Origin: Rhynchonema sp. JSB1_4
Taxonomy: Eukaryota; Nematoda; Chromadorea; Monhysterida; Xyalidae
DNA: 64,000 nt
Direction of reading: 5' to 3'
Assembly (NCBI GenBank): GCA_030248065.1
Contig: JASAMV010002510.1
Location: 1-64,000, forward strand
Part shown: positions 1,276 to 63,630 of the stretch, in pieces
Layout of the letters: each line of letters opens with the position of its first letter
How positions within the stretch are numbered: the stretch's first letter is position 1
Position numbers and translations under genes: made by a program
Notes under the pieces: generated by a model
The model's database searches: none
Told to the model about the DNA's origin: nothing
Seen by the model: only the letters and a program-made list of their open reading frames with translations

Positions 1276-1595
1276 TGTAGTGGCAGGCAAATGGTTGCAA
1301 GGTACCCTTGGGGGGGGATGGATCCAGATGGTTGCAAGGTACCCCCTACCCAGCCTCCGGAAGGTTGCAAGGTACCCCTTGAGGTCCAAAAAAAGGGTGT
1401 TTTTTGCATGCATTATACTGCAAATTTGGCTGAAAAATTGGTACTTTTTTGCGTTTTGGCCGAAAATTTGCCTAAAATACCTATTATATGGAGGTTTGCG
1501 CGCGGAGCGCGCGATTTTTGGGGTTTTGAGGTCGAAAAACACCCATTTTTGCCTATAAAAACCATAAATTGATGGTTGCAAGGTACCCTCCGGGG

Positions 1596-2006
1596 CAGAG
1601 GTGGGAATCGGGCCGGGTTACCTCGGCCCGGCCCGGCCCGACCGTTCGGGCCGGGAAGTCCGGCCCGGCCCGGCCCGACCTGGAAAAAAGTCGGCCCGGC
1701 CCGGCCCGATTTTTTCGGTCCGACTTTTTCTGATGACATTTTGAAGCAATTTTTGGTGCAAAAATTACTGTTTTTTTTGTTTAAAAATACCTGATAATTA
1801 TGGAAGTCGGTACTGATTTGCAGAATCGTGAGAAATTTTGGCAAATTTAGCCTAAAAAATCACGATTTTTTATTGAAATTCGATGATGTCGGGCCTTTTC
1901 GGGCCGGCCACCCCGGCCCGGCCCGGCCCGACATTCCGGAAAGTCGGCCCGGCCCGGCCCGGCCCGACCGTTCGGGCCGGAAACCTCGGCCCGATTCCCA
2001 CCTCTG
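1596..2006. mobile_element. GGCCC-array TIR element (nested)
   Basis: TIRs CAGAGGTGGGAATCGGGCC and its complement enclose inverted arrays of GGCCCGGCCCGG around an AT-rich core. The 8-bp duplication CTCCGGGG is perfect (1588-1595 and 2007-2014). It is inserted inside the 1273-2525 element and is therefore younger. The same family inserted into a LINE at 3543. Confidence 0.8.
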
Positions 2007-2045
2007 CTCCGGGGTGGTTGCAAGGTACCTACCCTTCCCCCCATC

Positions 2046-2438
2046 CAGTGTAGTTCCTGGTCCGGAGGGGGAGATAGCGGACCCTCCGTTTTTTTCGGAG
2101 GGGGAGATAGTGTACCCCCGAGGGGGGGGAAGGGGGGGGAAGACCCAAATTCGGGAAAAAGTCACTTTTTGAGGTAGAAAATTTGACCGATTTTTGCCCC
2201 TTTTTGGAAAAAATTCTTCATAAAAAGGGTATTTTGGCGACTTTTGAGAACATTGACCTGAAAATCACACATTTTAGGCCTAAAAATGCCCATTTTAGGC
2301 CTAAAAATGGCCATTTTAGGCAAAAATTGGGGGAGATAGTGTACCCGGAGGGGGAGATAGGGGGATAGTGTACCACCCGAGGGGGAGATAGCGTACCCGA
2401 GGGGGGGACCCCCCCCCCTCCCCCCAGGAACTACACTG
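2046..2438. mobile_element. hAT-like TIR element with CAGTGTAGTTCCTGG ends (nested)
   Basis: TIRs CAGTGTAGTTCCTGG and CCAGGAACTACACTG are flanked by the perfect 8-bp duplication CCCCCATC (2038-2045 and 2439-2446). Inside are repeated GGGGGAGATAGTGTACC subterminal motifs and a middle with two TTTTAGGCCTAAAA palindromes. Related copies lie at 31447, 44519 and 44881. Confidence 0.8.
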
Positions 2439-2559
2439 CCCCCATCCCCCCCAAGGGGTGGTTGCAAGGTACCTACTCCTTTGGGGGGGAATCCCCCCCA
2501 TCCCCCCCCCCCAGCCACTACACTGGCGGCGGGGCCGCTTTAACACGGCAATTACCTAC

Positions 2560-6189: not shown

Positions 6190-8819
6190 TACCGTTTCAA
6201 ATTCAAATTTTATTTGCAAGCTCACGCAAAGACCTACAACGAGATCCGGAAAACACCTGAAAAATAAACGAGTGTACGTAACACAATGATAATCATGAAT
6301 GAACAAACGACAAAACGTACCAGAGAAATTTTAAACCAACCAAAAACAGCAACGACAGGCGAAAATCAGTGATCAATGGCGCACACGAGATGAAAACAGG
6401 CGACAACAAAAACCAACGATTACCTGAAAGCAGCAACTCAGTGACTGAGAAGATCAGTCAACGACGGCTGAGAATTTTGTTGAAATATGGCGAGAAACTA
6501 CGTCTCGACCACGTGAGTTTAGTTTAGATTTAAAGGCCGCAATTGAGGCAGCGGAGACGACGTCCTCTGGGAGCCTGTTCCAGAGGTCCACAACGCGATA
6601 AGCCCAATACCCGGACAAGTCCGGACCCGCGCCATGAACTCGACACAAACTGTGGGAGTGCCCTCGGGTTGGGCGGTCGGTGTCACGCGGTGGAAAGAAT
6701 GATTCCTTGGTTACCCCAGGTATGAGACCACGAACGACTTTGTACACGAGCACAAGATCGTTCACGGTCCGGCGATAAATTAGGGGGTCCAAATTTAGTG
6801 CATGCAAACGCTGTTGGTAAGACAGTGTCTGCATGCCTGGTAAATAATAAGTGAACCTACGTTGAATTTTTTCAACGTTTTTAGCCAAAGTGACATTTTG
6901 AGGGGACCAAATGGACATGGAAAATTCCAGTAATGGACGAACATAGGCCAAGTAGAGTTTGCGGAGAAAGTCGCGATTACGACTGTGGAAGTTACGGCGG
7001 ATGGTCTTTTCCATTCTACTGGCGTCGGCCACAATTTTACCAATGTGTGACTCAAATTTTAAGTTTTGTTGGTCAATTATGACACCCAAGTCCCGGACAT
7101 GGGGAGGTGAAACAATCTGCTCATTCCCACAAAAATAGACAGGTGGGACTTGGGGGTGATCCCCAAGCCTTACAGTGACGCTCTTATGACTGGCTAGGGC
7201 CATGCCATTTGCAGAGAGCCAACTAATGACCGCATTTATGTCACCCTGGAGGATTTTGTGATCAACAGCACTACGGATTTCCCTATAAATTTTGATGTCA
7301 TCAGCGTAGAGATAGAGGTAGGTGCCTGGATGCACCACGCTGACAACATCATTTATATAAATGAGAAAAAGAGTCGGGCCGAAAACACTGCCCTGGGCAA
7401 CCCCGGAGGTGACCGGAGTCCACCCAGAAACAGCGTCACCGACCCGAACCCGTTGTGACCGTCCACTTAGGTAGGAAGATACCCAAGTGAGTAAATGACG
7501 GGGGAAACCGTAGTGCTGTAGTTTTTGCAGCAGCGCAGAGTGGGGGACAGTGTCAAAAGCCTTTTGGCTATCTAAGTAGATGATGTCCACTGCGCTCCCC
7601 CGCTCTAACGCTGCTGTCCAGTGTGACATGCAGCACAGAAGTTGGGCCTCCACAGAGCGACCAGGTATAAAACCGAATTGGCAGGGAGATAATAAATTAT
7701 GTTTTTGAAGATGAGCCATAACCTTTGAATTTACAAAGGACTCCAAAAGTTTGCAAGGGGAGGAGGTAAGGGAAATAGGACGATATTTTGTGACACTTTT
7801 AGGGAATTTTTCCTTGGGTATCGGGACCACATCGGCCAACTTGAAATCATTGGGAACAACGCCGGTGTGGAGAATTTGGTTGAAAAGGAATGAGAATTGA
7901 TCCACAAGTGCGAGGCCCAACTTCTTCAAGAAGGCCGAAGGGATCCCGTCAGGCCCGGGGGTAGTTTTGGTTGGAAGTTTTCGAAAGAATTGAAAGAGAA
8001 TGCGGGGAGAACAGACTATTTCCTCCATGTCCGGAACGGGATGGGCTGCACACAGAGGGATTGTGCCTGCAATTCCAAGGTTGGAATTGAAGACAGAGGC
8101 AAAATAGGCGTTGAAGGCGGTGGCCTTGGCCTCGTCCTCCGTGTGAAGCACACCGCTGGTGTCAGTTACATCAGGAAGATCAGTCCTAGGGCTGATTTTT
8201 CGTCTGATGTAACTCCAAAACTTTTTTGGGCTTGGATTTGTGACCAACGACTGTTCCCGCCTACGGACCCAGCTCCGTCTGTGTCGGCGAATGGTGCGAG
8301 AGATTTTGCACCGGGAATAGTAGGTATTGATATTTGGTTCCCGATGCATGCGCGAGCGCAGACGGGACTCCGTTCTACGTAGGCGGGACAGCTGAGGTGA
8401 CCAATCGGGCATATACCCGGTTGTCGAGGAGACGCGCGAGATGGGCACAAATTCTTTAATGGCCATTTGGCATGCCAATTTGATGGCATCCCAGGTGGAA
8501 AGTGGGTCAGAAAATGGGCCATAAAGAATTTCATCCCATGGAATATTGAGAGAAAGAAAAGCTTCCATCACGTCCCATTTCGCTCGGCCCCAGTTCCGAA
8601 AACGGGTGATTTTACGACATTTTGATGTCGTGTAACTGGTTGTGAGCCAGACGGGACGGTGGTCGCTTTGGACGTCTCCAAGACTTGTGGGCACCTCAAT
8701 TTTGGTGATTTTGCTGGCGTCAGTCACAAAAACCAAGTCCAATAAATTTGAGCCACGTGTTGGAGTGTTGACCAATTGAGTGGCGCCAGCAGTTTGGATA
8801 GTGTCCAAAAATAATAATG
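6190..8819 (-). CDS. CR1/L2-like LINE ORF2, 5' truncated (reverse transcriptase)
   Basis: One long open frame on the minus strand, about 790 codons, ends at 6454. From the N-terminus it holds the tail of an APE-type endonuclease, then a connector, then reverse transcriptase with TTPGPDGIPSAFLKK, KYRPISLTSS, AQGSVFGPTLFLIYIND and the catalytic YADD. It closes with the CR1/L2-type C-terminal block WAYRVVDLWNRLPEDVV. The frame is intact, but the 5' half of the endonuclease is missing because another repeat begins at 8820. The usual PQGS..GP.LF motif reads AQGSVFGPTLF. The untranslated 3' end (6190-6453) matches the other copy, suggesting recent common origin. Probably not autonomous. Confidence 0.93.
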
Positions 8820-8821
8820 GA

Positions 8822-9400
8822 TACCGTAAAAACCTAAATACAGCCCCCCCCCCCGAATAGAGCCCCCCGTAATACAGCCCCCCCAAAAAGGGTCAGTGAA
8901 TTAATAGAACCCCCCCCCCCGGAATAGAGCCCCCCAAAGCAGTGTGGTGGCAGGCCAATCGACCCAAGATACCCTTGGGGGGGAAGGTTTCGGACTTACT
9001 CGAGATACCCCCCAGAGGCTACCCAAGATACCCATATGGTCCGTCAAAAGGCGAAAAAAGGCCGTTTTTTGCATGCAATTTTACTGCAAAATTGGCCTAA
9101 AAATGGGTACTTTTTGACATTTTTGCCGAAAATTGGCCTAAAATGACCGTTTTTGGGTGTTTGAGCGCGGAGCGCGCGATTTTTGGGGGTCCCGAGGTAG
9201 AAAAACACCTATTTTTGCCTTTGAAACCCATAAATCTACTTACTCGAGATACCCTTTGGGGTCGGCTCGAGATAGATACCATTCCCCCATCCCCCCCCCC
9301 CAGCCACTACAGTGCCCCAAAGTAACATCCCCTTGTGGTGCACCTTGGTCTTGGAAATTAGTGTACCTTAGGGGGTCCGCTAGTGTTATTAGATTGTCTA
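8822..9400. other. Remnant of the CCGTAAAAACC family with later insertion
   Basis: It begins with TACCGTAAAAACCTAAATA and poly-C/GAATAGAGC blocks, truncates the LINE, and is itself split at 8940 by a TIR element. No right-hand TIR could be found. Confidence 0.5.
8940..9314. mobile_element. hAT-like TIR element, 8-bp TSD
   Basis: TIRs CAGTGTGGTGGC and GCCACTACAGTG are bounded by the perfect 8-bp repeat CCCCAAAG (8932-8939 and 9315-9322). Internal ACTCGAGATACCC motifs repeat near both ends. The GAGCGCGGAGCGCGCGA palindrome occurs near 9163. It is an empty shell without a transposase. Confidence 0.8.
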
Positions 9401-23157: not shown

Positions 23158-23630
23158 TCAGTGAGCTTCGGTACGATTGATGATCCCAAACAGCAAGCGC
23201 ATGACAGTTTGGCGCCTTGTGAACCGAAAATGTAACACATCGATGAAAGCTCAACGCATTCAAGGACAAAACTGACAGATTGAGCAGCAGTGTTGTGCGT
23301 GCGGTGAGCATCATCAAAAGAGCACCGAATCAGCACAACTGCTTATCAGAAATTCAGCCGAAAAAGCATTTGTTCTCTCACAGCCTACGTGCATGAGCAC
23401 TTTCATTATACATACATTCGATAGCTGAATGTATTCATATTCCAAATGACCAAATAATCTGACAAAGTTGTTAAGTGTCGTTGTTTAGCTTCACATTGTA
23501 CCACAAACAGATAATGTAACTGCAATAATCGACACGACACGTAAAGAATGAACAAAGACAAGCTGGTCACACAATGAACTCTGGACAAGAAATCAAGATA
23601 AAAAAGCAGATATTATGATCGTATAATACA

Positions 23631-27574
<3,944 letters not shown>

Positions 27575-28516: not shown

Positions 28517-31500
28517 TTACTCTTTTTTACCAATGTATCCAGAAGAAGACACGCAACCTCTTTGTGCCATCGCCGCTCCAGCCGGATAGTGAGGGAAACT
28601 GGATGGTGGAGGTGGAATAGATTGGCCGCTAATCGTGCTCATCGCCTGGAATCCACTCGCTTCTGAAAAAGAAAATCATGTTTTCAGCAGAAATTATAAG
28701 AAAAAGAAGCGGAAAGACAGCGCCACCCAGATGGAACTCACGTGCGCTCACGCCAGTTGTGTGCGGAGGAGGGGGGAACGGGTTGACCATTGCTGACGCC
28801 GGTTGTGTCGGCAGTCGGAACGCAGTGGGCGGCGGTGGCAAGGTTGATGCGCTGATGCCTGAAAAGTTTGCTATATTGAAGAAATTGTGTGCCGTATGTC
28901 GCATGGAAATTGCTCAGTCCGTCTCATGTGCTAGACGCTGTATTCACGTATTTTCAATTTTCAACGGACAGTCAACCTCAAGCATACCTAAACTGCTCAG
29001 CGACGGCATCGGAAATGAAATGGGTGGTGGCGCACCGTGCCCGCCTGCTGCCGGGAACATTGATGCTGCTGACGGGGTGGTGTTGGTCGAGGGCAGACCT
29101 GTGTGGTGTGGAATGAGGTGCAAATTGCGCACAACAACACAAAAGCTACGAATATGCACCAAGTGCGGGTGTAATGACGATTTCGGCAGTTATAGCATGA
29201 CATTGTCGTGTTTCACACACTCGGGAAAAGAAAGAGAGAGCTGTTGACTGACACAGTCGTGTCGTTCAGAAATCAAAGTCGGGATACCTGATGCGCAAAA
29301 TCTACCGAGGAGGGTTTGTACAAAGAAGGTGATGTTTTGGAGGAAACTTGAGCAACACTGCTGCTGGAAGGGTAAAAATTATGGTCATTCCAAGCGGCTG
29401 TGCTTTTGATGAGCAAGCGATTTTGAGCATTTTGGAGGTAAAAATGGTCGATCAATACAGTTTTTGGAAAGCTGTTAGGTTAAGATGCCCTTGGACAAGG
29501 TGTCAGGTTACCAGATGCCCTTGGGTGAAAAAATGGATTAACCAGATAGCGAATAAAAGCGCCCCCTCCCCCGGAACGACACCACTGCTGCCATACAAAA
29601 GGCCGACAACGGCCCAGGTTGCTTTCTCATTGACATTTCACTTTCGAGTGACCACTGTGCAACCAAATAAAGGCCATTGTAAATTGACCGGTGCCTTGAA
29701 CACCTAACGAACAAAAACCACCACAACAAACTCGCCAACGCACCCGTGTTTGTGCCATTCAACGATCCAGTGCTGCTGGGTGGTAGTGGTGGTGGGAAGG
29801 CCATGTTCGATGCTGGGGGCACGCTCGATATGGGCGGGGGCATGAAGGCTGCAAGTGGAATACACTGATAGCGGAATCATACTCTTACAAACATTTTTTG
29901 TGCATTTGGCTTTTATTTCGTGGGTGTTTTCAGAAACTTTGTCTGTTTTGGCGTGTGGAATGACACTGGTGCGTAAGACATCAATTATCTCCCAAACTCC
30001 CAGAAGGCCGATTTGTTCAAAAAAGCTACTATCAGCAACTTTTCATCAACATTGAAAACACACTAACGTTTGCTAACAGGTGGCGGTGGTGCCCCATAGC
30101 TGGTTGTGGGTGCGGTTGTGTTTGCCACACTGAACGGGTTGTCCATTGCTGCTGCTGTGGCAGGCACGGAGGGCATGAACACGCCTGCCGGCATGGTGGT
30201 CGTACCCGCAGTTGTGATGGCCGTGTGCGGCATGGGCACGCTGCTCGGCGGTGCGGGGAAGCCGTTTTCCGACGGAGCGCTCATGGGTGGCTCCGCTGAT
30301 AAATAAACAGCTCTTGATATCACTTCTTCGGGGGTGAATTTCCAGCCGACAGGGATATTTGCCAGTTTTACTGACATGAGCCAGTTAGAATGTAAAATGA
30401 GCCTGTAGCTTTTTTGGGCAAATGAGCCAGCGGGTTATTTTCAAAACGAAACCTATTTCTAACATGGTAAAAGTTGTCGATTACGTGCCGTCGTAGGGGA
30501 GCAAGTTCCACGGTGCTGGTTGAAATTAGTAAGCCAACTTGAGTACCAAATACCGCCATAACATCACACACACAACACAGACCAACCAGCAGTGCCCGTC
30601 ATTGGTGGTGGTGGTGCAGCATTGAATATCGGTTGTATCTTTCCGCCAATCGGTGCCTGCGGTTGTGGCACTTGCAACGGTGGTGGGATAGCAACGATGT
30701 CGTTGTTGACACTTGATGAAGCCGCTATGCTTGTTTGCGGGTCCTGGATGTTATATTTTGTTTTATTATTCGTATCGTAATTTTTCTTTTGAGCCAGACT
30801 AGACTGGTATAGGTGGAATCGTGATACAAGTTTTCTGACTTAAAAATGCATCGCATAACGTAAAAAAGTAAAATCCTGATAGTTTAGATACTTGAGCTTT
30901 GTGCAACGTACTTAAAAAATGATGCAGGCTCAGAAACGCGAAAACAACACAATTATTCACCATGAGCACTCCAGCAGGTGCGTATGATGTCGGTGGTCCG
31001 CCCATATTGACGGGTTTGGAGCGATCGACGCTGATCGGGATACGATGCAAATAGCCGTAGCCGATGTCACAGCCGAGACTGGAAGTGGTGATGAGAGAAA
31101 ATATTGGGTTCAATAAATATAACATCATTTTATTGGCCTTCAATGAAGAGTGCGCTATAAATATAATACACCCAGCACCAACTGACCATCCCTCCCCGCC
31201 CCATCCACTATTCGGTGTCAGTGTCACCTCCCTGACCGCGTCTGTGTCTACATTGTACACGTACAGTTTGAGTGGTTTGCCCTCATTCGCTTGCACCAAT
31301 GCTATTAGATCGTCGGCCTGCAGAAAAATATGGGTCTGAAAAAAATTTGATCAATTAATTGGCATTGTAGGACATGAACTACAGTTAAACACAGTGCAGT
31401 TGTAGTTGCAGGTCCGGGTGCGGAATAGACGTTCCCTCCTGGTAGGCAGTGTAGTTCCTGGTCCGGCGCGGCGGTTAGTGTACCTACCCCTTTTTCCGTG

Positions 31501-42586: not shown

Positions 42587-45500
42587 TCAAGTGTGCATCT
42601 GTTTGTTGATCACGGGTGGCGGGGCAACCGATTGTGCATCGGACATTGACGATTGGCTCGCAGCCACTGATGAGCCAGACAGCCGGTCGGCGAAGTACGG
42701 GAATCTTTCTGAAAAACAAAAAACATTGAAAACAATGACATCAATCATTTTGGTTCATAAATGTTGCCGACGTTTTCCAAACCTGCCAACTCGGCCTGTC
42801 TCTTCGGAGTCTGGTAGTTGGCGTCTGTCTTCATTTGAACATCTTCATCCGAGGATCTGTTCTTCAAAGCGTCCTTTTTCGCTTGAGCGCTTTTCTGAAA
42901 AAAATCAGCAGCGCACAGTAAACGTGCTGAACACCAGTGCAACATCAACGTCTAGGCAAGCTCCAACCTTGGTCTTCGTGGTTTTGCGAACCAACGACCG
43001 ACCCTGGACGTTGTTCTTCTTTGAATTTCGATACAGACAATAGCCGATGATGAGCATACAAACTGCCACACACCCGACCCCACTCGCGATCACAACGGGT
43101 AGCAACCAGCTGAGATTGCGTTTGGTCGACTGCTTCGGTGTCGCTCGTTGAGTCATAATAACTGCAATACAAAGCTGAGCTTGGGATGGCATCTGAGCTG
43201 GCTTGAGCATTGAGTTCTTTCTACTTATGGTATTTGGGTATGGAGTACTGGGGGGCCACGATTCGATTATGTTTATTCGACTGGGTCTACAGTTTTACGC
43301 TGGTCAAAATTTGTGGCCTCGGAGAATTTGTCATCCTTGTTTCAACAGACTTCGGTCACCAATTCAGGTCCGGTCCCATCCACGCACTCAGCAAGTTTGA
43401 TTCCGGTCACCACCGCTTTGTTATCATGCCCATTGGACATACAACCCAATAACTAATAAAAGTGCTAAATCATGCCAACTTTTCGTGGGTCGTCCGCAGT
43501 ATCGCAGACTCCTCGGTCTGTGTGCCCACCGTCCATCCTGACAGGTGTACTGTATCATGCTGCTACTGGCCACGATGGTGGTCTGGCTGTCATCAGTGCA
43601 TCGGTAGTGCAACGTGGTGCCCTCGTAATACGTCGAATTGGAGTCGTGATCGGGATCGGGCTGCGTGATTCGGTGCAGCTCGGCGTGTGGAGGGGGTGGG
43701 TGGTCGGGCGGACAGGCTGTATGGATGCATTTATTGATTCATTGATAGATTGCAACAATTCAACCAACGTTTCGGTTCGTATTCGCACAAGAACGGACGG
43801 CCTGTCTTGCAACGTTGCTCCCTCGGTCGTTGCGTGAAGCAATCGAACAGCGGACATCGGAAATCGGTCAATGACACCCAATACCTGTTGGCTGGCCCTT
43901 CTGGAGCGCAGTCTGGGTCCTACAATTAAGTTCATTTCATTTCACATTTCGAGTTAAATTCAAAACGTAACCGCACTAACCAATCTATTCAGCAATACTT
44001 CAAATCTCATGCCATATTCATCCCCAGCGTTCGCCAGTTTTCCACTCATAAACCCTCTCGGTGTCGTTACCTTGCAAAACTGCTCTCTCGTCCCATTCGG
44101 AGTGATTCAAAACACTCCGCTGCGGAGTAACCCAGAAAAAAAACTACGTGGAGTTTTTCAAACACGCTGCGGAGTGATTAAGCTCCAACACTCTGATTTT
44201 GGAGTGATTGTGAAACACTCCGCTTTGGAAAGCACTCGATAAAGAGAAAAACAAATTTTTTACGCCATTTTGCAGCATTTTGAGAAATTTTATTGTTATA
44301 ATTATTTCTTTTGCGTGTTTATCAGCATTTTGTGTTCCAGCTATTTTATCTATGTTGCGCTACGCTTACTGTCGAAAGGACCGTTTCACCGCTGTGTCTG
44401 GTCAATCGACAATCAATCTCACGACCCATAAAAAAGAATTCGGCAAACAAGGCATTATCACAAGTGTGGTCAGTTGAGCGCAAACGGCCAGCCAAGCAAA
44501 CGTGAGTACACATCAAAGCAGTGTTGTTCCTTGTCCGGAGGGGGAACAGGCGATACCCTCTTTTAAAAGGAGTGATTAACAGTCGTACCCACCAGGGGGG
44601 AAGACCGAAATTTGGAGAAGTCATTTTTCGAGGTCGAAAATTTGACCCATTTTTGCCCTCCTTGAAGAAACTCTCAAAAAAATGGTATTTTGGGGGTTTT
44701 GACAACATTGACCTAGAAATCACTCATTTCATGCCTAAAAATGCCTATTTTAGGCCTAAATTTGCCTATTTTAGGCAAAAATTTGCCTATTTAAGGCAAA
44801 AATTGGGGGAGCAGACGTACCCGGAGGGCGAACAGGGGGGGGCAGGCGTGCCATGGAAGGGGAACAGACGTACCCGAGGGCAGTGTAGGTCCTGGTCCGG
44901 CGGGGAAATTAGTGTACCTCCCTACTTTTTCGGAGGGGAAATTAGTGTACCTCCCTGGGGGGGAAGGGGCGGGAAGACCCAAAATCAGGAAAAAGTCACT
45001 TTTTGAGGTTGAAAATTTGACCGATTTTTACCCCTTTTGGGAAAAAATTCTTCATAAAAGGGGTATTTTGGAGACTTTTGAGAACATTGACCTGAAAATC
45101 ACACATTTTAGGCCTAAAATGCCCATTTTAGGCCTAAAAATGGCCATTTTGGGCAAAAATTGGGGAAATTAGTGTACCCGGAGGGGAAATTAGTGTACTA
45201 GTGTACCTTGGTCGGGGAAATTAGTGTATCTCAGGGGGTCCCCCTCCCCCCACGAACTACACTGCCCGAGGGGGACCCCCTCCTCCCAAGGAACTACATT
45301 GCATTAAAGAACAGTCGGCGTCGACATTTGAGTTTGCATCTCAATTCTGCACCGCCGGGCCCGAAACACAACAATGATGATGACTCAACGGACTCTGGGG
45401 GTGGACCCGAAAATAAAGAGCCAAATGAACAGTCTGAACCTTATACTTGCTTTTTGTTTTTGAGTAAAGAGTTTGCTTGCTTGTTCTAGCGCAGCACTAC

Positions 45501-50700: not shown

Positions 50701-51995
50701 GGCTATCCCAAACCACAGAATGTACCAGTCGAACGCCCAGCTAGACGTAGACATGTACATTGCGTTCATCCCAGCAGACAGCGGGGGAACCACGTTGGTG
50801 GTCCAAAAAGGTGCACACAGAACACCAACTAACAAATAGTACATACAGATCGCGAAATGGACAGACTTTCGGGTACAGTCCACACAAAATGAGACCAACT
50901 CTTGGATTTCACCCGATAAGATGGAATTGGCGCAGCGATAAGCGAGTGGACGCATAGCGAATACAAGTGGAGAGAAAATCGGCTTTGGAAAATGGCTGTG
51001 CGGTGCGCTACTGTGATATTAACGACCAGGTAGTGAAGTTGGAATACGCATGTTCTCGAGCACAAAGGTTTATGTACAATGTATAAGTCACTCAAGATTG
51101 TCTGATAGAAATCTGCTGGTATACCTGTTTACAAAGAGCACCCAAAAACTTGAAGCGGAAGCGCAAATGTGAATTGTTCAGCAATGTGCTTTTTGGTTGC
51201 CCGTTTCGACCTGCGTTCGCAGACGGGCGGTGCACCAGGTCATCGTCAGTGCGAATGCACCAGATGGCCACGTGACCCCAAAAAGACCGACGTTAGCAGC
51301 GGGCGTTCACACAATTTGCGCTATACTGCCTGTGCGCAGTGGTGGTGGTCCACGCGACCGTAACAATACCGCAACTTTTCTACGAAACTGGATGCAATGT
51401 TGTGGTTCCTAATGTAACCAGGCATTAGGTACCTGTGTTCAGTCCAATCACGTGCGGGTGTCTTGAGAAATGAACACGTCATACGCTTTTAACCACATAG
51501 TGTTGATCATAAGGCATGAAACATCAAGCCCACCTTCCATCCAGCGGCGGCTTCGGGATTGGATCGTTCATGAAAATACTGTATGTTGTCAGCAAACCAC
51601 TGGTAGATCTCGGACAGTTTCATTCGACCCCCTGGTGCACAGAGCAATGCCCTGGTGATTAGGTCGGCATACGAGGCCTCGCCCCACGGATTCGGCTTTT
51701 TGGTCGGCGCTACAGGGGCACCTGACGAAGTCCCACTGCCGTCAATGTTTTCGGTCGAGGTTCGCTTTTTCTTCGACACGGAGGGCCGTCGGGCCGAGTC
51801 AGTGGCAGGGATGGGGATTGATTCGTCACTGGGTGCAAGACTGGACACTCCTGACGGGCCCAGGCTCGATGACGGGGTGCACTCGATGGCAGCCGATGTC
51901 TGAGAAGGACCGGCCGCAACCATTGTTGGCCACGTGAAACATCGGTCACGAGCGATCGGCTCGAGGTCGTCGATCTCGATGTCGGCCGATTCCAT
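47738..51995 (-). CDS. daf-16: FOXO transcription factor, DAF-16a-type isoform
   Basis: Exons 51995-51534, 49900-49824, 49712-49601, 49331-49231, 49133-48955, 48882-48775, 48685-48588, 48507-48285 and 47919-47738 join in phase to 513 residues. It starts [18 protein letters not shown], followed by CFTWP, so RDRCFT is an AKT site of RxRxxT type. The forkhead domain runs from [17 protein letters not shown] through [12 protein letters not shown] and AAGWK into the shared [20 protein letters not shown] and [20 protein letters not shown] is the second AKT-type site, at the nuclear localisation region. The C-terminus is Pro-rich and ends with the FOXO transactivation helix [19 protein letters not shown] is the nuclear output of insulin/IGF signalling (stress, longevity, dauer). 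The NPWG...QWF half-domain is the DAF-16a type. The stop follows KFENL. Confidence 0.95.
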
Positions 51996-54900
51996 GCTGA
52001 TTCACCGATTGATTGGATCGATTTGCAGATAATCACAGTTTGCTAACGGCTGACCTGGCGGTGTATCGGACTTCGTCAGTTAAATATTTTTTTGTAAGAA
52101 GGTCGCGATTGATTTATCCCGGTGAGATCAAGATCAACGCATAGTTGGTCGACATTTCGATGTGAAAACTTCCGTTCGGCTTGCGAGTGTCCAGGAAAAG
52201 GATCAGTAGTACTGCAAATATACAACGCCCATTCTCAAAACAAAGTATGCAAGTAAGAAAGAAAGAGAAAGAACAAAGGGCAGGTTCGGTCAAAGGCTAC
52301 CTGACAGGCTGCAGATACACACGTGAACTATTATACAGCCAAGTTGTAACATTGTGACCCTGGGTCACCATCAAAAGAAGGGTGCAAGAGTGTGCAAAAA
52401 TGGACCTACAGAGCTGTGTACATACGAGTAAGAGCAGACACACATTTCGTATAATGTTACCGGCAGACAGTGAAAGAGAGTGACCACTGTCCACCCCACT
52501 ACTGCGTGTGTGAATTGACAGGCTCCATTGGAGCATAAAGAATGCCTCTCACTGCACACAGAGCACTACCCACTGACGGGCTGAAGCGAAAAACCAAACC
52601 AGTAGCAGACAGCCTGCCTGCCACATTCTATAGAGAAACGTTCGGGTCGAAAATTGCTGGCATTACATGCACACCACACACAGAGGGTGGGGGGCATTTG
52701 TGTGAACGTCGCTGCTGATAGAATTTGGCAATGGACGGCTTACGACGACGGCCGGTGACGCCTGAGATTTCTGCGAAGGGACCCCTTATTCTCAGAAAGT
52801 CCTGCGTCCTGTGCTGCTGAACATCAGCTGATTTCGTGCGAGGGATGTCCAATCATAAATCTCAGGTCAGTAATCAGCCGAGGTGACCACTGGTCACCAC
52901 ATATACATGTACGCACGTGTGCATTCTCGTTCTCTCTTCTCTTAGATAAAAACCAAATATAGGCACGCACATTGCCCTTGATGCATCTGCACTACGTAGA
53001 CACGTGGCACACACCCACACACATACGTTGTGGCCTGCTGCTGCGTTTTCAGTTTCCGAACGGTTAGACGCAGGGCTCAGGGGCCATACAGGGTCATACC
53101 AAGATGGTCGGTATTCTCGGATCTGTTGTTTTTGTCGCATTGCAAGCTTCGGGGCATGTGCACTGTGATGATCAACGGTTGCATGCTGCTATACGAAGAG
53201 TGCCGGCGCACAACGCGTGTTGGACGAGTCTCTAACTTTGCACAACACCTTCCAAAATACGGTCGAAACATCAACCATCACTGCTGAAGGCGAAAAACGA
53301 ATGCAAAATTGGACGGGAGAGAATGTAGAAGGCTCTGACCTTGTCCCCGAGTGGACAGACACACATGTGTGACCAGGCAAGATTACGGTAGGATTGCTGG
53401 GGGTCAGGACATGTATTTGGAGGTGTGATGAAGAATGAGGGTGCACTTTAATTGAGTTATGAAAAAAATGATTGTCTGATGTTCAACCTGGGTAAAATTC
53501 ATGGCAATTCAACATTAAAATTGAATCATTACAGTTTTTTGCCTTTAAGCTCATGTCCGAAGGTGAACCAGTTGCCCAACTACACAGCCGATAAATGCTA
53601 AGCCTTTTACGTAGTGCGCACATCAGAAGCCCGTGTACGCGTGGACAAGCGATTTTTCTTTGCATTCTATTCACTGTCTGTGTGGTGGATACATGTTCGC
53701 TTCGCCACACACTGTGATGAAAGCATACACATAGAAAAATTATGATGGTCAAAAGGGTGAGAAATTGCACCAGCGATGGTGTGAGATTTTGATCTATTGA
53801 TGCTGACTGGCTGATAGAGCGATTATGATAATGGGAGAAAATCAATGTGAGAGATTGATTGGAAAGGCTATCGGGATTGCCAGTCAAGGCACGCGGCACT
53901 CACATTAGAACATTGGCGCTCGATTCTTGTGCTGTTAATTCACACACGCACACACGCACACACACACGCAAGCTTCACTTTGACAGACATTCACGCAACA
54001 AAATGAGAACTTCCAAGTTTCTTCCTTGCACAAATAATACATATATGAAACAGTCCCCACCGACCTTCCACCCGGCCGAACTGTTGCTATCGCCTTTGTC
54101 ACGGAAATACGGCACGTTTTGTACCATCCAATCGTAGACTGAAACCAAGCACAATTGCTACAATGTGTGTGTGTACATTTGAGAAAATGTTCGTTTTTGA
54201 ATATCAGTGCCACGCGTATAAAAATGATGTACACGGGATGTTGAACAAAAATGGAAAATCATGGAAAGACAACCAACTTTGTGACAAGGTCAATCGTTGT
54301 TCCCTTGAGCTGAGTATGGCTTGGGTGATGAGATCGGCATAGGACATGTTGCCCCACGCGTTGCGTCGATTGGCCACACGTTTCGACACCTGAATTGGGT
54401 GGTTGATGAACACTTGTTACAGGCATTTTAGTCAGGTTCGGTTTAAGGCCTGGTTCGGTTCAGGCTTAAGAGAACATAACCGCAACAGCAAAACCACCCT
54501 TGTTTGAAAGCCCGCCGGCACCATCACACCGTTTGAACACAAAAATTCACCTTTGTTTGTGGGAAACGGTTATCAATTCGTTATAGGCATTTGCAGGAAG
54601 AAAATTTGGTTGGCTGTTTTGGGTGCATGCGGTTGTCTAAAATACCCCGCCCTGCACGCGCGCGCACAGTAAAAAAAGTGCTGCGCCAAAAAGTTGAAGC
54701 AAACTTTACTTTTTTTATCTGCGTTAAACTGCTTTTACAACATGACCGAAAGCGTCGAATGATTGTTAGAATGAAAAGAACGCCCCGCATCACCTAAATC
54801 ATACACCAAACATTATGAATTTTAGGTAATATGTTTTGTGAATACAAAAATCATCACACGGTCCGATGACACTGAAGACAGTAGGCAACGTCTCCGTTAT

Positions 54901-57900
54901 AACGGAATTCGGTATAGTAGAACGATGTTCTTGTCCCAGATTAGAATTTTGGAAAGACACAATATCATCACGTTCGTTACGATGGAAATTCTTGTCCCAA
55001 ACTATTCTGTTGTAAGTTACAATTGGGGCTCTATAGACTCGGGGCCACCCCCCAGAAACTACCGTAATCCATGTGCTACCGTACCCAAACTTTTGTCACG
55101 TGATATACAGACCCATATGAACTTGTAATATTAGTTTTGGTCGTGTCGGTCAACGGAATCGGTCACGGCCGATCGCCATCGGTGGCATCGAGGTCAAATT
55201 TCAAAGTTGTCCGAATGTTACATGTAGCACTTCTATCATATTCAGAATTTTTCGCTGATTCCAAAAATGTTAAGCTTATTTCATTCCGACGTCGCATGAA
55301 AGAGTAACAGTCTATTTTTCACTCATTCTCTTCTTGCGCCGTGCTGTGCGCTTGCCTTTTTGCAAGTAAGCGTGCACGCTCGACTCGTTCCAACCTTCTC
55401 TGTTGTCGTTCTCGCTTGTTTCTGGTTCATTTTTGCTCATTTTTTCTGCCAGGCTCCTTGTGTATTCTTCCCAAACTTTTCGTGCTTAGCTTGTTTCCAT
55501 TCCTGCTCTATAAAATTCGGTAATCGCAATCAAACTTTTCCTCGCCTCATCTCCATACAAATTTTTCAATTTGTTATTTCTCGGCCATCTCCACACCTTT
55601 TTCAATGCCGTTTTCGCCGATCGTGTGCAGGTCAGTTCTGTTTGGTTTTTAAGTAGTTTTATCGTGATTGTGAGCTTTTTCCCAGCTTTTTTTTTTCGCA
55701 AACAATTTAGCCTTCCCAACCCCTGTCAAATTTTTTGCATTACCGTAACCCGTTTTCACAACCATTCCCGCGCGTCGGTTTTTCTGTGCTGTGGCAGCCC
55801 CTCATCTCACCCAATAGCATGTTGCGTGTTCTTGCGTTGTGTATGCTGTGTCTGTGTTACATGTTCATGTCCATTATGTATTCTGTGTGTGTGCAATCTG
55901 TGAATGTGAATGGTTTAGCAACTAAACACAAATTTGATGAATTGATCGTGCATTGTGCAACGTCCGAGCCCCGACCCGATGTGCTGTGCGTCCAAGAAAC
56001 CAAGTTGGACGATCAATCATGTGACGATTTCAAGATCCCAAATTATCGATTCTTCGCGAGGAACCGAACTCAGCACGGTGGTGGTGTCGGGGTTTACATT
56101 AAGAACAGTCACAACCCATACATGATGCCTGTCAAAATTCCTGATAATCTAGAAATTCTGCCCGTCGCCTACACGATTGCCGGGGTCAAGTGCCATTTGT
56201 ATCCCACGTGCTAAAACTCATATTCTCGCTACCAGTGCTATTGTTATCATGTCCCATCTTTACAATGCTTTACCTGATTTTGCTGTTTTCCTGCGAATGG
56301 GCACATTCAAAGGAGTCATTCGTTCGCAAAGCTTGATTGTTGAATTGTTGTACAAATTGCGATTGCTGCCAGTGAAATTTATTCCGTCCGTGTGTGAAAT
56401 GTAATTGACCGATCATGCTGTGTTTCTGTGTTTTCTGTGTTTTTGCTCCTTATCATCATCTACATCTCTCGATCCGTAACTATCCACTGGCCCACTAAAC
56501 ACTTGTAATTATTTATGGTCTCGTCGTTACTGTCCAGCTTATGCGTGTTGTTGACGTTACCATGTTGCTTCTGATGCAATAAAAACTTGAACTTGAACTT
56601 GAACTTGAACTCAGTTGCACGCTCGCTGGATTTTAGCCAACAGTGCAGCCAATCAGCGCGCATAGGGGCAAATAACCTTGAGGCAGCATGTGCACTGGGT
56701 GTTGCATGTTGGTTACATGGTGTTGTGCGCACATACATAGCACCCGCGGCACACGTGAGTGGCATAAAAGGCGGTATACCTGCGCGCGCAACCCCCATTG
56801 TATTTGCTCTCAGCAAGTGATCTAATTGCACATCATATCTAATTGCTCTCTTCCGTGCCGATTCGCGGGCAACCGTCCTTGGGTTGTCACACCACCCTTG
56901 TCTCGACCACTTACCCGACCAACGGCCCTCTTAGGGCCACCCCTTAAACCATGTTATGGGCTGTGGGAAACAGCATCTTGACACTAGGTGCACAAATGCT
57001 TCCCAAACAAGCACAAATGCACAATTACCAAACCTTTTCTTCCTGATCAATGAAATAAGCTTAACATTTTTGGAATCAGCGAAAATTCTAACATGATAGA
57101 GGTGCTACATATAACATTCGACAACTTTAAATTTACCTCAACCACATGGCGATCGGCTACCATTCGTTACCGACACACCAAAACTAATATTACAAGTTCA
57201 TATGGGTCTGTATATCACGTGACAAAAGTTTGGGTACGGTAGCACATGGATTACGGTAGTTTCTGGGGGGTGGCCCCGAGTCTATAGAGCCCCGTTACAA
57301 TTTATAACGAGTGTCGATTGCTTTCGTCACCGGTAAAGCTTGACGCTGTGTAACGTTAGTTTAGACTTGCTTTCGCAGCCAAGAAGATTGACTAATTTTA
57401 CGGAAATCCACCCGTTTTGTGTGTGCTTAAGCATAGTCCCATACTTAAGCTTTAGGCTTCTAGTTCAGGCTTAGGCTTAGGCTTAGGCTTGCGGTTAGAC
57501 TTAGATCTTAGGCTTAGGCTTAGGCACCAGCCTGAATCAGATAAAACCCACAGCCACGGCGAAAAACGGCTGTATCTTTCGTGGACGCGTGGTCGGTCGG
57601 GTGGATTTCCGTATAATTAGTCGCTCGTCAGCCAAGCTGTGCATCAGATAATTGCCAGTGCAAATGCACCAAATGGACAACTAATTACTGTATGTGCGTA
57701 CTAGGTGAACTGCATCAGAACGGATGCAGCTGGTTTCAAACTTGGTGGATCGGATCCGATTTGCCTGCTGACCAGTACATCAGGGCGTTCTCACTCTCTG
57801 GCGACTGATAAACATCTGTCAGGCAAGTGGAGATCGCTGACATCATTAGCACCAAAGATCACCCAGTCAGGTCCGATCGCATGCGATTAAGGTCACTGGT

Positions 57901-60900
57901 CTATCGTAGTCCGATGCGATGACCAAGTTTGATATACGAAGACGGTCAAAGTGTGTCAAAGGTGCACGTACGGGTTGTTGTCCGTTGCTGGATAGGCCCG
58001 AGTCACTGGTGGATGGCGATGGCGTGCTCGGTTCGACACACGTGTGCGGCGCGATCAGTTCGGCGCCATTCTCACCCGTCGGAGGGCCGTCGCTGCAACG
58101 CAAACAAGCACACGTTTGAGTTTGTACATGTATGTAGATGGTTGTACTATTTTGATTTCGAAATGAATACCAAGATGTGACAAGCTTGAAACATCAGAAT
58201 GCCATCGTCCCCTTGACAAGTAAATAATCCCACAGAACAGAAAAAAGGTCGTGACTCTGTGAAGACGAAGCCAAGGTGCACTGATTAAGTCCCAGGTAAA
58301 CTAAAGTCCAGAATAGTGTGGAATGTACACGCATAAAATTGCCAGAGACCTCTGATGTGCTAAGCATATCTCCTCACCCGTGTAATGTGTAATTAGCACA
58401 AAGTTAAAACTATACGATTCTTAGAGCCAGCAGGGGATTACCTTGGTCTGAAAATGACTACGTTATGTGGATGAGTCCTCTGCTAAGGGACTTCCCTAAG
58501 TGGACAATTTGCGATATTAGCACGTGGCGCACAGATGTTCTGCTGCTGACCGCAGCTGATACTGTACGCATGCAACCTTGGCTGTCCGTTTTTTTCATCG
58601 AGCATGTATAATGTGGCGGATGTTGCATTTACATACTATACTACATGTTCGTTTTCCCATGCACATATGGAAAGATGTACAAGTCATACTTTTTCGAATG
58701 TTACGCATCTGGTTAGGCATCATAGTAAACAAACCCACACCACAATTTACATTTACTACTCGATGGGTGGCCAGACTCACAGGGCACATTACACGTCGAT
58801 TAAAAAGTTAGGGCAAAACTTTTTTCGGATTTGTGGCAAAAGCTGTATTCCACTTGATGTTGCTTTCCCTCGATAGGAGTGCCATCTCAGTACTTTTCAA
58901 CTAAAACATCTGTGTATTATGTGGTGTACTACCTGGTGGAACGTGTGTGCAATACATTACAGGGTAAACCCCATGACCACAAAATATATCGGCATCACGG
59001 CATGTGTGTTGTGTCGGCGAAAGTTCCAGAAAAAAATGATCAGATGATAAGGTGGTCTGGCTTCCCACATGCAACTGGCAAGTCGGAAATACAAAAAGTG
59101 CTCGTTGCAATTTTGTTTACGTCCGGGCAACGTCTAAATTTAGGTAGTTTGTCAACATTTCACTTGCCGTGTTCCGTAAGCAAGTGTTTTTTAGTTTGCT
59201 TGCTGCATATACCCAGTTAAATTTCAGCATTTATGAGGGCTCACAAATTGCGGACTCGATAATTGTTAAACCAGCCCACGCACTTTGTTCGAAAACAGAA
59301 AAAGTTTGATATCGACCCTGGCTGTCGGTTCGTATGACATGTACCACATGTATGTCGTCATTAATCACGTTGATTTTTGACACAGAGCGACTAACAGCTG
59401 TAACCATTAATGCCCCATGCGCGCCCACGCCACGTATTCGCGATTAGTCCCATCGCTCTTCCACAGATACTACCATTGAGGTATACCATTGCAAGCTTTA
59501 AGCGAGAAAGGGGCTCGTTCTCTTGCAATTACGGCCAACTGAACGCAGACACAGTGTGTCGTTTTTTTGTGCACATGCGCAAATTTAGTCAGAATCATAA
59601 TAAAAGCGCAGTAGTTGCGAGTTGGTCGGCTCGCAAATGCACTGTCCCCCACTGTGCCTCCGAGCCCGGTCCATCCACTAAGCCGTTACCACGCACTTTC
59701 ATATGACGTCACACGTTATATTCAACTGCGGTCCGTATATTAGTGCAAGTGTGTGCGCACATGCAGGATATTGGCAAGTGGTTCTTACTTTTGGAGACAA
59801 GATTTTTGCAATACTTTTCTACTGCTGGTAGTTGATGAGGTGCTGAACAAGTTCTCCTTTTTTGTCCCAGATTTGACCCAACCAACTGCAGCTATATTTT
59901 TCTGCACTGAGCAATCCTAAAAATGTACCAGGCGCGGGTGCGAAACCCAACCCGAGGTCTGCCTGCACGTCTCTGTGACTGGGAGGGTGGTACCACGTGG
60001 CATATCTCACACACACGCATATTCACAAACTATATATGTAAACCGTGAGTGCAGCAGCAAAAAATGCATTGGGCAGTAAAAATGGAATTATTCGGACTGA
60101 TAGCTAAATTCGTGATCGCAGAATTTGCCAACTATGATACAGTATACACGTGCATATGTGCAGGGAATCTAATTTGTATTACCAGACTTACGCAAATTGT
60201 GGAACCAGTTTAAACTTGTGCAGAAATAGCACAGAAATCCCGCTGAGCTGTTGTAGTGTTCACCAAAAATATGGAGATGCAGCTTTTTGAGACGTTACCC
60301 ACTTTTGCACCAGATTATTCTCTGATGAAACGGAGATTACCCAATACATACTGTAGGTCACGAGAGAAGTTAGTCTTTGCAAACCCGCTTTTATAGAATG
60401 CTGCTTTCTTCATGGTCCAAAATGGCCAAAGAAGGAGCCAAATCCAAAAAAGTCATTTTTGTCTGGTGCTTGTTCCGTTTTTGAAAAACTATTTTTATCC
60501 AGTAATTGTTTGGAATTTCCGCTTTTTACACCAAACTGTGACAATACGCGCGAAGCGCGCGAAATTTTGGCACTTTTACGCTCGTGAAAGCACAATCTCT
60601 CGTTTGAAGTGTATCACAGTGAAAATCCTGCAATCTAGCGGCCCTTTTCCTTCTTCCTTAAACGGTGCCCCCTTCAGAGGCCAAATAGGCCGAAGGGGGC
60701 ATGGCCCCTGTGGCCCCCTTGATTCGCCCTTGCCTGCCTGCTAGATATGGTATCCAAATGAGTTCAGGGCGCCATTGTGTGCCGACAGTCCCTTAATACG
60801 GCATGGTTAACGTTAAATCGAAGAAAATTATTTGGCGTATTGGGTATGTTTGTACTTGAGCTAACTTCCTTTCTAGTTCATGTTCAGGCACACCTGATTT

Positions 60901-61660
60901 TCTTTCAAAGGCCAGCTGTCACTCAACAACAAGATGTGAGGTCCGGTTCTCAGTCCGGGCAGTGGCCTCTCGAGTGTTCCGGTCGTCACAATAAAGACCG
61001 ACGGTAACCCGGGAGCGTGAAAAGGTGCAAATGTGGACTATGCTCGTTTCCGGAATTTAGGTCTGATATTTAAACTTAATGGGTACTACGTGTATATGTA
61101 TGTATATGTACCTGTTTTGTGCAGGCACATTTGACCAAGATGCGACATTTACGTTTCGATGAAAAAAAAACCAAGAATCGTGGATACGAAGTTGAGTGAC
61201 TTTTGCAAACGGATGAGAATATTATTGTGACAAGTAATGCCGACGTAAAATGAGTTAATAGTCGCACTCTTGGACCAGTCGGTAGTATGTATTCTAGAGA
61301 GTACCCAATTTCCAACATTCCTTTAGCCCAAAAAGTTAGGAAGCTTATTGTCCCAGGCAACGTTTGACGTATACTGACAATAAAAACCTTGCGAATCTAT
61401 CATGTTGCACATTGAGCGAAAGCAGAAGATGTCTGACCACACAGCGAGCGCAAGGAATTTGCCAGCGGTCCCAGATTTCAGGACTTCAACGTATACCTAC
61501 GAACGACAAACCAAACAAACAAAATCGTTTCGCGCACCAGAAGTAGTCGGTTTCCTCCTCCTCCTCATTGATGTGTTCGTGCATGAGAGCACAGTCATGC
61601 GTTTGTGGAGGAGTGGTGTCGCCCTCGTCGTCAGGCGCGTGCAACGGCCATGTGTTGCAT
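47738..61660 (-). CDS. daf-16: FOXO transcription factor, DAF-16b-type isoform (5' end not found)
   Basis: Upstream exons 61660-61538, 58092-57972, 54389-54278 and 54138-54065 join in phase and continue into the common exon at 49900. The first supplies [13 protein letters not shown], the alternative AKT site whose preceding Arg comes from a missing 5' exon, then [14 protein letters not shown], as in DAF-16b. The second is Ser/Pro-rich ([14 protein letters not shown]). The next two encode the other forkhead half: [38 protein letters not shown] and [12 protein letters not shown], typical of DAF-16b and vertebrate FOXOs. Both halves end at the same codon (AAG), so either fits the shared second half. 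Transcription probably starts beyond 61.7 kb, possibly outside the window. Introns of 3.4-4.2 kb carry repeats. Confidence 0.9.
49905..51530. other. FOXO intron between the a-type exon and common exons
   Basis: No extra exon seen. It holds dispersed repeat pieces such as GGTGCACCAGGTCATCGTCA near 51227, also seen in altered form near 22546 and 57640. Confidence 0.4.
51996..54064. other. Putative promoter region of FOXO isoform a and intron of isoform b
   Basis: No gene recognised. It includes an ACACACGC microsatellite near 53940-53970. The position directly upstream of the isoform a start makes an internal promoter likely. Confidence 0.4.
54390..55009. other. FOXO isoform b intron, left part
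   Basis: No exon seen; short GCGCGCGC run near 54658. Confidence 0.4.
55011..57305. repeat. Inverted repeat arms flanking a LINE relic
   Basis: Arms of about 280 bp (55011-55290 and 57043-57305) are inverted copies, e.g. CTATAGACTCGGGGCCACC / GGTGGCCCCGAGTCTATAG and CAAAAATGTTAAGCTTATTTC and its complement. The interior holds a LINE fragment and a CTTGAA tail. The arms are too diverged to be new. Could be one large composite element. Confidence 0.75.
55735..56612 (+). pseudogene. Internally deleted non-LTR retrotransposon relic
   Basis: The frame at 55900-56215 encodes the N-terminal half of an APE endonuclease: [28 protein letters not shown] and [15 protein letters not shown]. The next piece (about 56220-56404, [20 protein letters not shown]) looks like the C-terminus of a LINE ORF2. 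Reverse transcriptase is absent, so a large internal deletion has occurred. The 3' end carries tandem TTGAAC at about 56584-56612, a microsatellite tail seen in CR1/RTE-type LINEs. Not the same subfamily as the LINE at 6190. Confidence 0.75.
57465..57530. repeat. Interstitial telomeric repeat (TTAGGC)n
   Basis: About nine TTAGGC-type hexamers, several altered, in a FOXO intron and oriented opposite to the arrays at 5.2 kb. Confidence 0.85.
58095..61535. other. FOXO isoform b intron
   Basis: No gene recognised. It holds a CGCGCGAAGCGCGCGA palindrome near 60547 and a GCCCCCTTC...GAAGGGGGC hairpin near 60669-60702, both likely inside an eroded repeat at 60.4-60.75 kb. Confidence 0.4.
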
Positions 61661-61799: not shown

Positions 61800-63630
61800 T
61801 ACGCCGACCGAGTTTTCGACCGAACTTTACGCCGACCTTTACGCCCAACTGACCTTTACACCGTTTCGAAAATTCCACCCACACACGGGGTGCACTGACC
61901 AGCTTCGGCTTCTTCTTTTCTTTATGTCCTGGTCACAAACGTGGTGACCGGATCGGACCTGCCTTGATCACGTGACGTTGTTGAACTAACAAAGATGATG
62001 TTGACTGATGCTATACGAAGTTGGATTAGCGCAGAGATTACATAGGCACTAATCTGGGAACAACTTTTACGCTGGTAGAAAATGTGGTAGCAGTGAATTA
62101 CGAAATACTCTCAACACCAAAAGTCACGTGGTCGGTCAGATCAGACCGCTAAGTTTTATCTTGTGGTGACTTTCGATCAAAAATAAAAAAACAGCAACAA
62201 TGTCCATGGTAGGGTTGCGCAAAAATTTTAAGCAAAACGGTTTTTAAAAAATTTTTCGGGGCAACAAAATACTCTAAAAAGTCCAAAAATGGCCTTTTGA
62301 GGGTTATTTTGTGCCATTTTTCTCAAGGGTCGAAAAGTTTTCTTCATTTTTTTAAAAAATTTGAAAAGTTTTTTGAAAGTTGTCTGAAAAATTTTTCTTC
62401 CAACCCTGGTATACAATGCATGTATACATACCTGTCCCTGGACTGCGGTTCAAGCTCAGTAAGCAATTCCGTCTCCGCGTTTGGTCGTGCGAATGGCATC
62501 ATGTGCACACAATGGTTCAGAGAATACGGTTGGATGAATCACCGGTAATTGTGCAATTGACGCTCCAATTGTACGTTGAATCAAACGTGTCGCATATCAC
62601 AGAGTTTTTTCATAGAAATTTCAAATCCAATAACGTATATAATTTCCATCTTTGAATTTCATCGGTTCTGATTATCTTTGAAACATCACGAGTTGGTGTC
62701 ACCGGGTTAGGGATATTGTGGGTATGTGGATATCTCGCTGTTGCGAGGATGCCGCACCCTGTAATCAGTTGTGTCTGAAAAGAAACTTTGATGCCTGAAG
62801 GCAGAGGTGCCTTTGTGACATACTGCAAGTATCGTTGTTCAAGATGAGGGATGACTGACTGTCTGGGCAAAGCTGACCAGCAAAACAAAGGAGCATAATG
62901 AGTGGTCAAACGAAACAAAGCATGTAAAGAAATACATACCAGCTGTAGTGCGTGAAACGTCGAAAATTCATGTGTGGAATCAGTAAGTATGTATATGTTA
63001 GTGCTATGTATCCATGCAATGTACCTAGCGTTTCACCGATGTAGCTATACGAATCCAATTAACTAAAATTAAGCGCAGGACGGAGAATGATGAATAAGGG
63101 AATCCGCAGCAATCAAGGTCAGCAGGGGAAACTGACTCATGATTAACACAACACACGCGTGGTTCTTCGGTGTAAAAATCTGACGTGCCATTATCTGCCC
63201 GAATGTAAATCTAGCAAATTGAGCCGTGGGGATAATACTACTACGGGGGCACCAGACGGAAAGGTGCGCTATGATTTATCATGCGCTGTGATCGGGTTTG
63301 CAAGGCAGAAGTGTCACACAATTAAAAAACAACTATCATCCTTTATTATCTGATACTGCGAGTGCGCCATTCATTGCGGAAGTAAAGCTTGCAGATGTTT
63401 TTAATTAGCGGCAGTATTGATCCAATTACATGCGTGTATTCAGTAAGGGATAAAAAAACATAACGTGTTTACGTGTCTTGTCCTCATTTGTCTGACGTGC
63501 TGCATTAAAGGTTCCTCGTTTAAGTATTTGTATGCTCAAGCAGCACCCAAAAGTAAAGTCAAGAAAAATTAGTTCCAAAGGAGCTGTCTGGCGGTGTTCT
63601 TCATGGGAATAGCAGTAACAACATCAGAAT
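61800..63630. other. No gene recognised
   Basis: Searched on both strands for the missing FOXO 5' exon without a convincing hit. A TTTTTAAAAAATTT-type inverted stretch (62222-62400) looks like an old repeat. Confidence 0.4.

Follow-up and report, generated by a model that had tools for sequence, protein, structure and literature searches.

In Caenorhabditis elegans, the b form of the FOXO gene daf-16 has an internal promoter, in intron 4, and a separate exon encodes part of the DNA-binding domain of this form (PMC5364836, PMC9790082); isoforms a and f act in lifespan and dauer, and isoform b in neuronal form and behaviour (PMC9790082). The daf-16/fktf-1 gene of Strongyloides stercoralis has a-specific exons, a large intron and a b-specific exon 4 (PMC2660150), with separate promoters (PMC3493385), and AKT sites govern whether its b form is located in the nucleus or the cytoplasm (PMC5364836, PMC2660150). 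In Brugia malayi, daf-16 (Bm5392) yields a b-type form with a large 5' exon and an a-type form with another N-terminal section, both continuing into shared 3' exons (PMC12536313). A locus with two forkhead halves and an internal promoter is already published for C. elegans and Strongyloides, and a separate b-type first exon for Brugia. Here we describe a FOXO locus of this kind in positions 1–64,000 of contig JASAMV010002510.1 (hereafter, the window). What appears to be new is its phylogenetic placement, with the b half found in a worm that apparently branches earlier than C. elegans and the parasitic worms.

The window contains a single FOXO gene on the minus strand (62502–47738), rebuilt from the sequence as 14 coding exons, and all its introns are of the GT-AG type. 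Five upstream exons (A0–A4) lead into a forkhead N-terminal half of the RRNAWG type, one exon in the intron after A4 (B1) starts by itself and provides a half of the NPWG type, and eight exons (C1–C8) are common to both chains. The a-type chain has 526 residues and the b-type chain 513, both open down to a shared TGA that ends at 47738. We estimate at about 0.88 the probability that this is the FOXO gene (daf-16) of a nematode that branched off early, with a two-start organisation in which either A0–A4 or B1 is joined to C1–C8. The original prediction, made from the letters of the window alone, had proposed one FOXO gene in which two N-terminal halves, bearing separate AKT-type motifs, precede one shared remainder; the rebuilt exons confirm this, and the stop that would have refuted it is found in neither half. 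The daf-16a/daf-16b arrangement that it named is borne out by the anatomy and by comparison of the halves with those of other nematode FOXO proteins. Its limits for the locus, 51534–61660, were too narrow: the gene extends above to 62502, and the shared 3' part lies below 51534.

Coding in the RRNAWG (DAF-16a-type) form begins with A0 (62432–62502), an exon that encodes MMPFARPNAETELLTELEPQSRD followed by R and ends at a GTATGT donor in phase 2; an in-frame TGA lies 39 nucleotides upstream of its ATG, at 62541. This exon, correctly said to be missing from the earlier list upstream of 61660, was sought on the minus strand, from 61680 upwards, as an RxR ending in phase before GT; the sequence used was the window with 39.6 kb beyond it (103,600 bases). 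Three sites passed the filter, and 62432 alone yields a FOXO-like ...SRDR|CNTWP with a GTATGT donor. Exon A1 (61538–61660; gatgtttcag acceptor, gtgcgc donor) supplies the remainder of the AKT motif (CNTWP), so that A0 and A1 joined in phase 2 read RDRCNTWP, and an acidic stretch. It is followed by A2 (57972–58092; gcgttgcag acceptor, gtacgt donor, phase 0), by A3 (54278–54389; caattcag acceptor, gttggt donor, phase 1), which carries the opening part of the a-type forkhead half up to ...RLTLSQ, and by A4 (54065–54138; ggtttcag acceptor, gtcggt donor, phase 0), which carries the second part. All four exons predicted to start at 61660, 58092, 54389 and 54138, with CNTWP and the RRNAWG half, are present. 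This half is indeed split, though not after the whole LSQ codon, as had been stated; the break lies one base further on, within the following codon (Ile, A|TC; phase 1).

Exon B1 (51534–51995) is 462 nucleotides long and open. The start, AKT-type motif and NPWG...QWF half attributed to it are read directly as an ATG, with an in-frame TGA 9 nucleotides upstream, the motif RDRCFTWP and a DAF-16b-type half, NPWG...QWF...GWK, before an AAG/gtgggc donor in phase 0. The ends of A4 and B1 are alike (...GWK, AAG|gt, phase 0, ahead of C1), and the common ending claimed for the two halves before the exon at 49900 thus holds at both donors. The shared part, also on the minus strand, begins with C1 (49824–49900; ttgcag acceptor), which encodes the recognition-helix region of the forkhead domain. 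The second AKT-type motif, RRRAQT, lies in C2 (49601–49712), and the third, RGRSGS, in C4 (48955–49133), together with GRLSP; the first Arg codon of RGRSGS spans the border between C3 (49231–49331) and C4. The gene continues with C5 (48775–48882), C6 (48588–48685; acceptor tttcaag) and C7 (48285–48507) and closes with C8 (47738–47919), which holds the stop codon and a C-terminal end resembling, by eye, the LQCDIDAVMRHELNVAGNIDF of P0006, a JGI protein.

The large-5'-exon isoform of Brugia resembles C. elegans isoform b, i.e., the DAF-16b protein, which in WormBase is protein isoform a (PMC12536313); hence a and b in the original prediction were swapped relative to the usual gene names. Its labels fit the WormBase and UniProt isoform letters only: the C. 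elegans entry P0068, UniProt 'Isoform a', carries the NPWG half. In the usual DAF-16 names, followed here, NPWG is b and RRNAWG is a.

Transcripts from a putative upstream promoter would splice A0–A4 to C1–C8 and give a DAF-16a-type FOXO. A second putative promoter, located between A4 and B1, would give transcripts that begin in or above B1. This exon has its own ATG, below a TGA that closes the frame above it, and a donor, through which it would be joined to C1–C8 to give a DAF-16b-type FOXO. The 2,069-nucleotide stretch between A4 and B1 (51996–54064, minus strand) is the candidate seat of the b promoter, in the position of the beta promoter of C. elegans and Strongyloides. The forkhead half with the recognition helix would be identical in both proteins, as would two of the AKT-type motifs and the C-terminal part; each would have its own first AKT-type motif and its own forkhead half ahead of that helix. 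We infer from the sequence that the two halves are interchangeable. The GWK|NSIRHN border presumably lies just before the recognition helix, in which case the exchangeable part comprises helices 1–2 and the N-terminal arm. Since the base-reading recognition helix is shared, the core DNA site should be common to both forms, and affinity, flanking contacts, partners and tissue of expression are predicted to differ. In Brugia, a reporter with six DBEs responds to a-type as well as b-type isoforms, and in two of three experiments more weakly to the b-type (PMC12536313); activation of one DBE reporter by both is what a shared recognition half predicts. The different roles of b and of a and f in C. 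elegans, noted above, are likewise consistent with this prediction.

As in C. elegans daf-16, there is one FOXO gene with the b-type start lying inside it, but the b half here has diverged in sequence, and no d/f-type start was identified, although no search was aimed at one. The separate b-type first exon and shared 3' exons are as in Brugia Bm5392. Two Brugia isoforms are trans-spliced to SL1 (PMC12536313), whereas canonical SL1 was not found in the present genome, either as a 22-mer with up to two mismatches or as an 18-mer with one (no matches each, both weak negatives); the RF00198 model likewise gave no matches, a weak negative in turn, as it gave none in 14 control genomes. The order of exons, with the b-specific one downstream of the a-specific ones, is that of Strongyloides, which however has three a-specific exons against five coding ones here. 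A single-exon b half is not special to this genome, being known from Strongyloides exon 4 and the large 5' exon of Brugia. The FOXO proteins of Trichuris and Trichinella share with the window the a-type half and the region that follows it (for T. muris, 57% across 51% of the query, the a form). None of the six such proteins among the matches listed has a b half, each being a-type; their genomes were not searched. Homologues of daf-16 have been recorded in all of 23 species, clade I included, in a study whose main text does not use the word 'isoform' (PMC4924289).

Both predicted proteins pass the Pfam Forkhead model PF00250 (79.2 and 89.6 bits; cut-off 27). For the b-type forkhead the best solved structure is PDB 2mbf (E 6.3e-45, 155 bits), followed by FOXO3, FOXO1 and FOXO4 (at least 110 bits), while other FOX classes reach at most 58 bits. 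The structure 2mbf, which we take to be the Brugia malayi DAF-16a domain, has the same b-type half, NPWG...NEIYNWF; a 2014 study of that domain is cited in PMC12536313. In the spliced proteins, three AKT-type RxRxxS/T motifs surround the forkhead domain: RDRCNT or RDRCFT, RRRAQT and RGRSGS. A search of the whole assembly (203.9 Mb) with B1 and part of the shared region, which scores the best candidates only, gave 13 matches, two of them the gene's own exons; there is no second B1-like exon among the 13, and the best of the other 11 by E-value is 48% identical. No Pfam matches were obtained for the minus-strand frames 42905–43294, 43424–43738 and 43555–43941 or for the frame of C4 itself.

Two protein searches, from which the best 120 of 1,903 and the best 120 of 2,165 matches were taken, together gave 161 different proteins. 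A forkhead half could be extracted from 160 of them, and by our own rule 120 of these halves are a-type and 40 b-type among the matches listed. Of the b-type halves, 39 belong to named species, all of which we take to be nematodes of Rhabditida sensu lato (Rhabditina, Tylenchina, Spirurina); the remaining one is P0019. The a and b consensus sequences are identical at 25/53 positions. At 48/53 the window's a half has the residue of the a consensus; the window's b half matches the b consensus at 38/53 and has the b-like residue at 16 of the 28 sites diagnostic of a versus b. An intermediate position of this half on the way towards a was considered and rejected: it agrees with the a consensus at 25/53 positions, within the range of the 40 other b halves (21–29/53), and at 3/28 sites only is it a-like. 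Of recent gene conversion between the window's two halves there is no sign: they agree at 95/159 bases and 25/53 residues, and the codons of 15 of those 25 residues are identical. Apart from these, the 460-residue ENA protein P0121 shows, by eye, four degenerate FOXO-like forkhead repeats.

A tree of halves was built from 51 rows and 55 columns, comprising 24/40 b halves, 21/120 a halves, four internal a halves and the window's two; with 55 columns its finer branching is unreliable. The b halves, including those of the window and C. elegans, group in a single clade of 25 rows with 100/100 support, whose stem measures 2.12 changes per column, and the a halves vary little between phyla. Because the b clade is fully supported, its stem long and the a halves little changed, the NPWG half is, on this comparison, the derived one, and the sampled b halves share one origin. 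This agrees with the earlier proposal that the single-exon NPWG half is probably the derived copy, the other being closer to vertebrate FOXO; the RRNAWG half is the one shared with other animals, and the consensus counts also uphold this. The window's b half falls outside the other 24 at 96/68, on a branch that is not starred and whose bootstrap is not settled.

Two trees of the shared region bear on the placement of the worm, and the window is a long end branch in both. In the first (56 rows: the window plus 55 of the 161 proteins), 39 Rhabditida-type rows, 28 of them from named species, cluster together at 100/99 and exclude the window, whose partner is P0006 (95/68). Several constrained placements were not rejected: with the 39 Rhabditida-type rows (p-AU 0.479), with these and P0006 (p-AU 0.524), and outside Rhabditida-type plus Trichinellida rows (p-AU 0.279). 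In the second, of 32 rows with the long-branched ones left out, 21 nematode-type rows including the window form a clade (100/99), as do 15 Rhabditida-type rows (13 of named species; 100/99) without it, and a branch with support 91/85 sets the window, P0006 and the Rhabditida-type rows apart from Trichinellida. Forcing the window beside Ditylenchus was rejected (p-AU 3e-5). Judged by FOXO alone, the likeliest reading is that the worm is an early-branching, non-rhabditid nematode. Since the Rhabditida-type rows exclude the window, and the other sampled b halves exclude, with moderate support, the window's b half, the two-half locus is probably older than Rhabditida.

Several observations weigh against a two-start locus or against this placement of the worm. 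In the best tree of the 56-row test run, the window and P0006 group with Trichinellida (72/46); with 32 rows, a position outside all other nematodes was not rejected (p 0.136), and one beside P0062, the outermost Rhabditida-type row, was borderline and narrowly not rejected (p-AU 0.052). Of the 28 diagnostic sites in the b half of the window, three have the a-like residue and nine have neither. The C-terminal transactivation domain FOXO-TAD (PF16676) has no match in either form at E 0.01, and it is present in the Trichuris, Trichinella and P0006 entries; this domain is typical of FOXO but not defining, the C. elegans entry P0068 listing PF00250 alone. Finally, there are acceptor-like AG sites inside B1, and five predicted proteins of other nematodes (P0001, P0002, P0003, P0004, P0008) have an a-type start, with the a-type motif, and then a b-type half.

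The last two points would fit splicing of part of B1 behind A4, giving tandem forkhead N-terminal halves, with B1 no alternative first exon. The joins were inspected in four of the five proteins: P0001 and P0004 reach GWK and continue in sequence like that of the b exon, but in P0002 and P0008 the a half is broken before GWK, as in mispredicted models. B1 moreover has its own ATG just below an in-frame stop, and the published Brugia and Strongyloides transcripts have separate starts; we regard tandem halves as very unlikely. The five fused proteins in themselves may be annotation fusions or real double-half transcripts. Decay offers another explanation: among the 40 other b halves, just three agree with the b consensus at as few positions as B1 or at fewer, as might be so in a non-functional duplicate. 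Against it, B1 keeps an open frame throughout, an intact donor in the shared phase, its AKT-type motif and the b-like residue at most diagnostic sites counted above, and its third-position GC (0.62) is like that of the a exons (0.66) and the shared exons (0.58), which makes decay extremely improbable.

As to its origin, human FOXO genes have an unsplit first exon that ends at the GWK|NSIRHN border. The b half may have arisen when an undivided FOXO first exon of this kind was duplicated along with its donor. On balance we favour, with some reserve, a second half that arose once, before the split from Rhabditida, and was kept as a single exon, which may preserve the undivided ancestral first exon. 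Alternatively, the single-exon half could stem from intron loss, or from a processed, cDNA-derived duplicate of the 5' part of the a form, instead of duplication of an ancestral unsplit exon; the region that B1 covers is cut by four introns in the a form. The end of B1 exactly at the donor, at the GWK|NSIRHN border, is not expected of a random cDNA insertion but has no bearing on plain intron loss, and this second origin is a tenable if less favoured proposal.

If a single origin before that split is right, the FOXO locus with two starts would be older than the parasitic lineages and the dauer-type pathways in which it has been studied. A literature search over titles and abstract openings returned nothing on a b half outside Rhabditida or on when the b half arose. 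Its presence outside Rhabditida would bracket the time when the division of labour between the isoforms began, and a b sequence as distant as this one helps to single out the b residues that stay constant.

Other features of the genome were observed in passing. On the mitochondrial contig C2636, ten protein genes lie on one strand, except for an inverted second nad5 piece at the start (nad6 was identified, and nad4 and nad5 were named, by eye), a layout that we take to be nematode-like; ARAGORN in its bacterial setting found no tRNA there. For COX1, the best match is an ENA protein at 82%, and the matches listed with a species name, at about 68–72%, come from many phyla and do not help to place the worm. 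Much of nad5 occurs twice in opposite directions at 636–3026 of this contig, probably as an assembly palindrome. Within the FOXO gene, the intron between A2 and A3 holds a stretch of approximately 2.3 kb between perfect 117-nucleotide inverted repeats (55025–57293), with a plus-strand endonuclease/exonuclease/phosphatase fragment (PF03372; frame 55711–56213; 25.3 bits against a cut-off of 24.5); it is probably a mobile-element remnant. Elsewhere in the window, an 812-residue minus-strand open frame (6454–8892) resembles, by eye, the reverse transcriptase of a non-LTR element, and a shorter frame at 2830–3699 is similar to it. Minus-strand open frames at 23593–26515 and 30799–31350 presumably correspond, again by eye, to the splicing factor SMU1 (WD40) and to a Golgi reassembly stacking (GRASP) protein, respectively.
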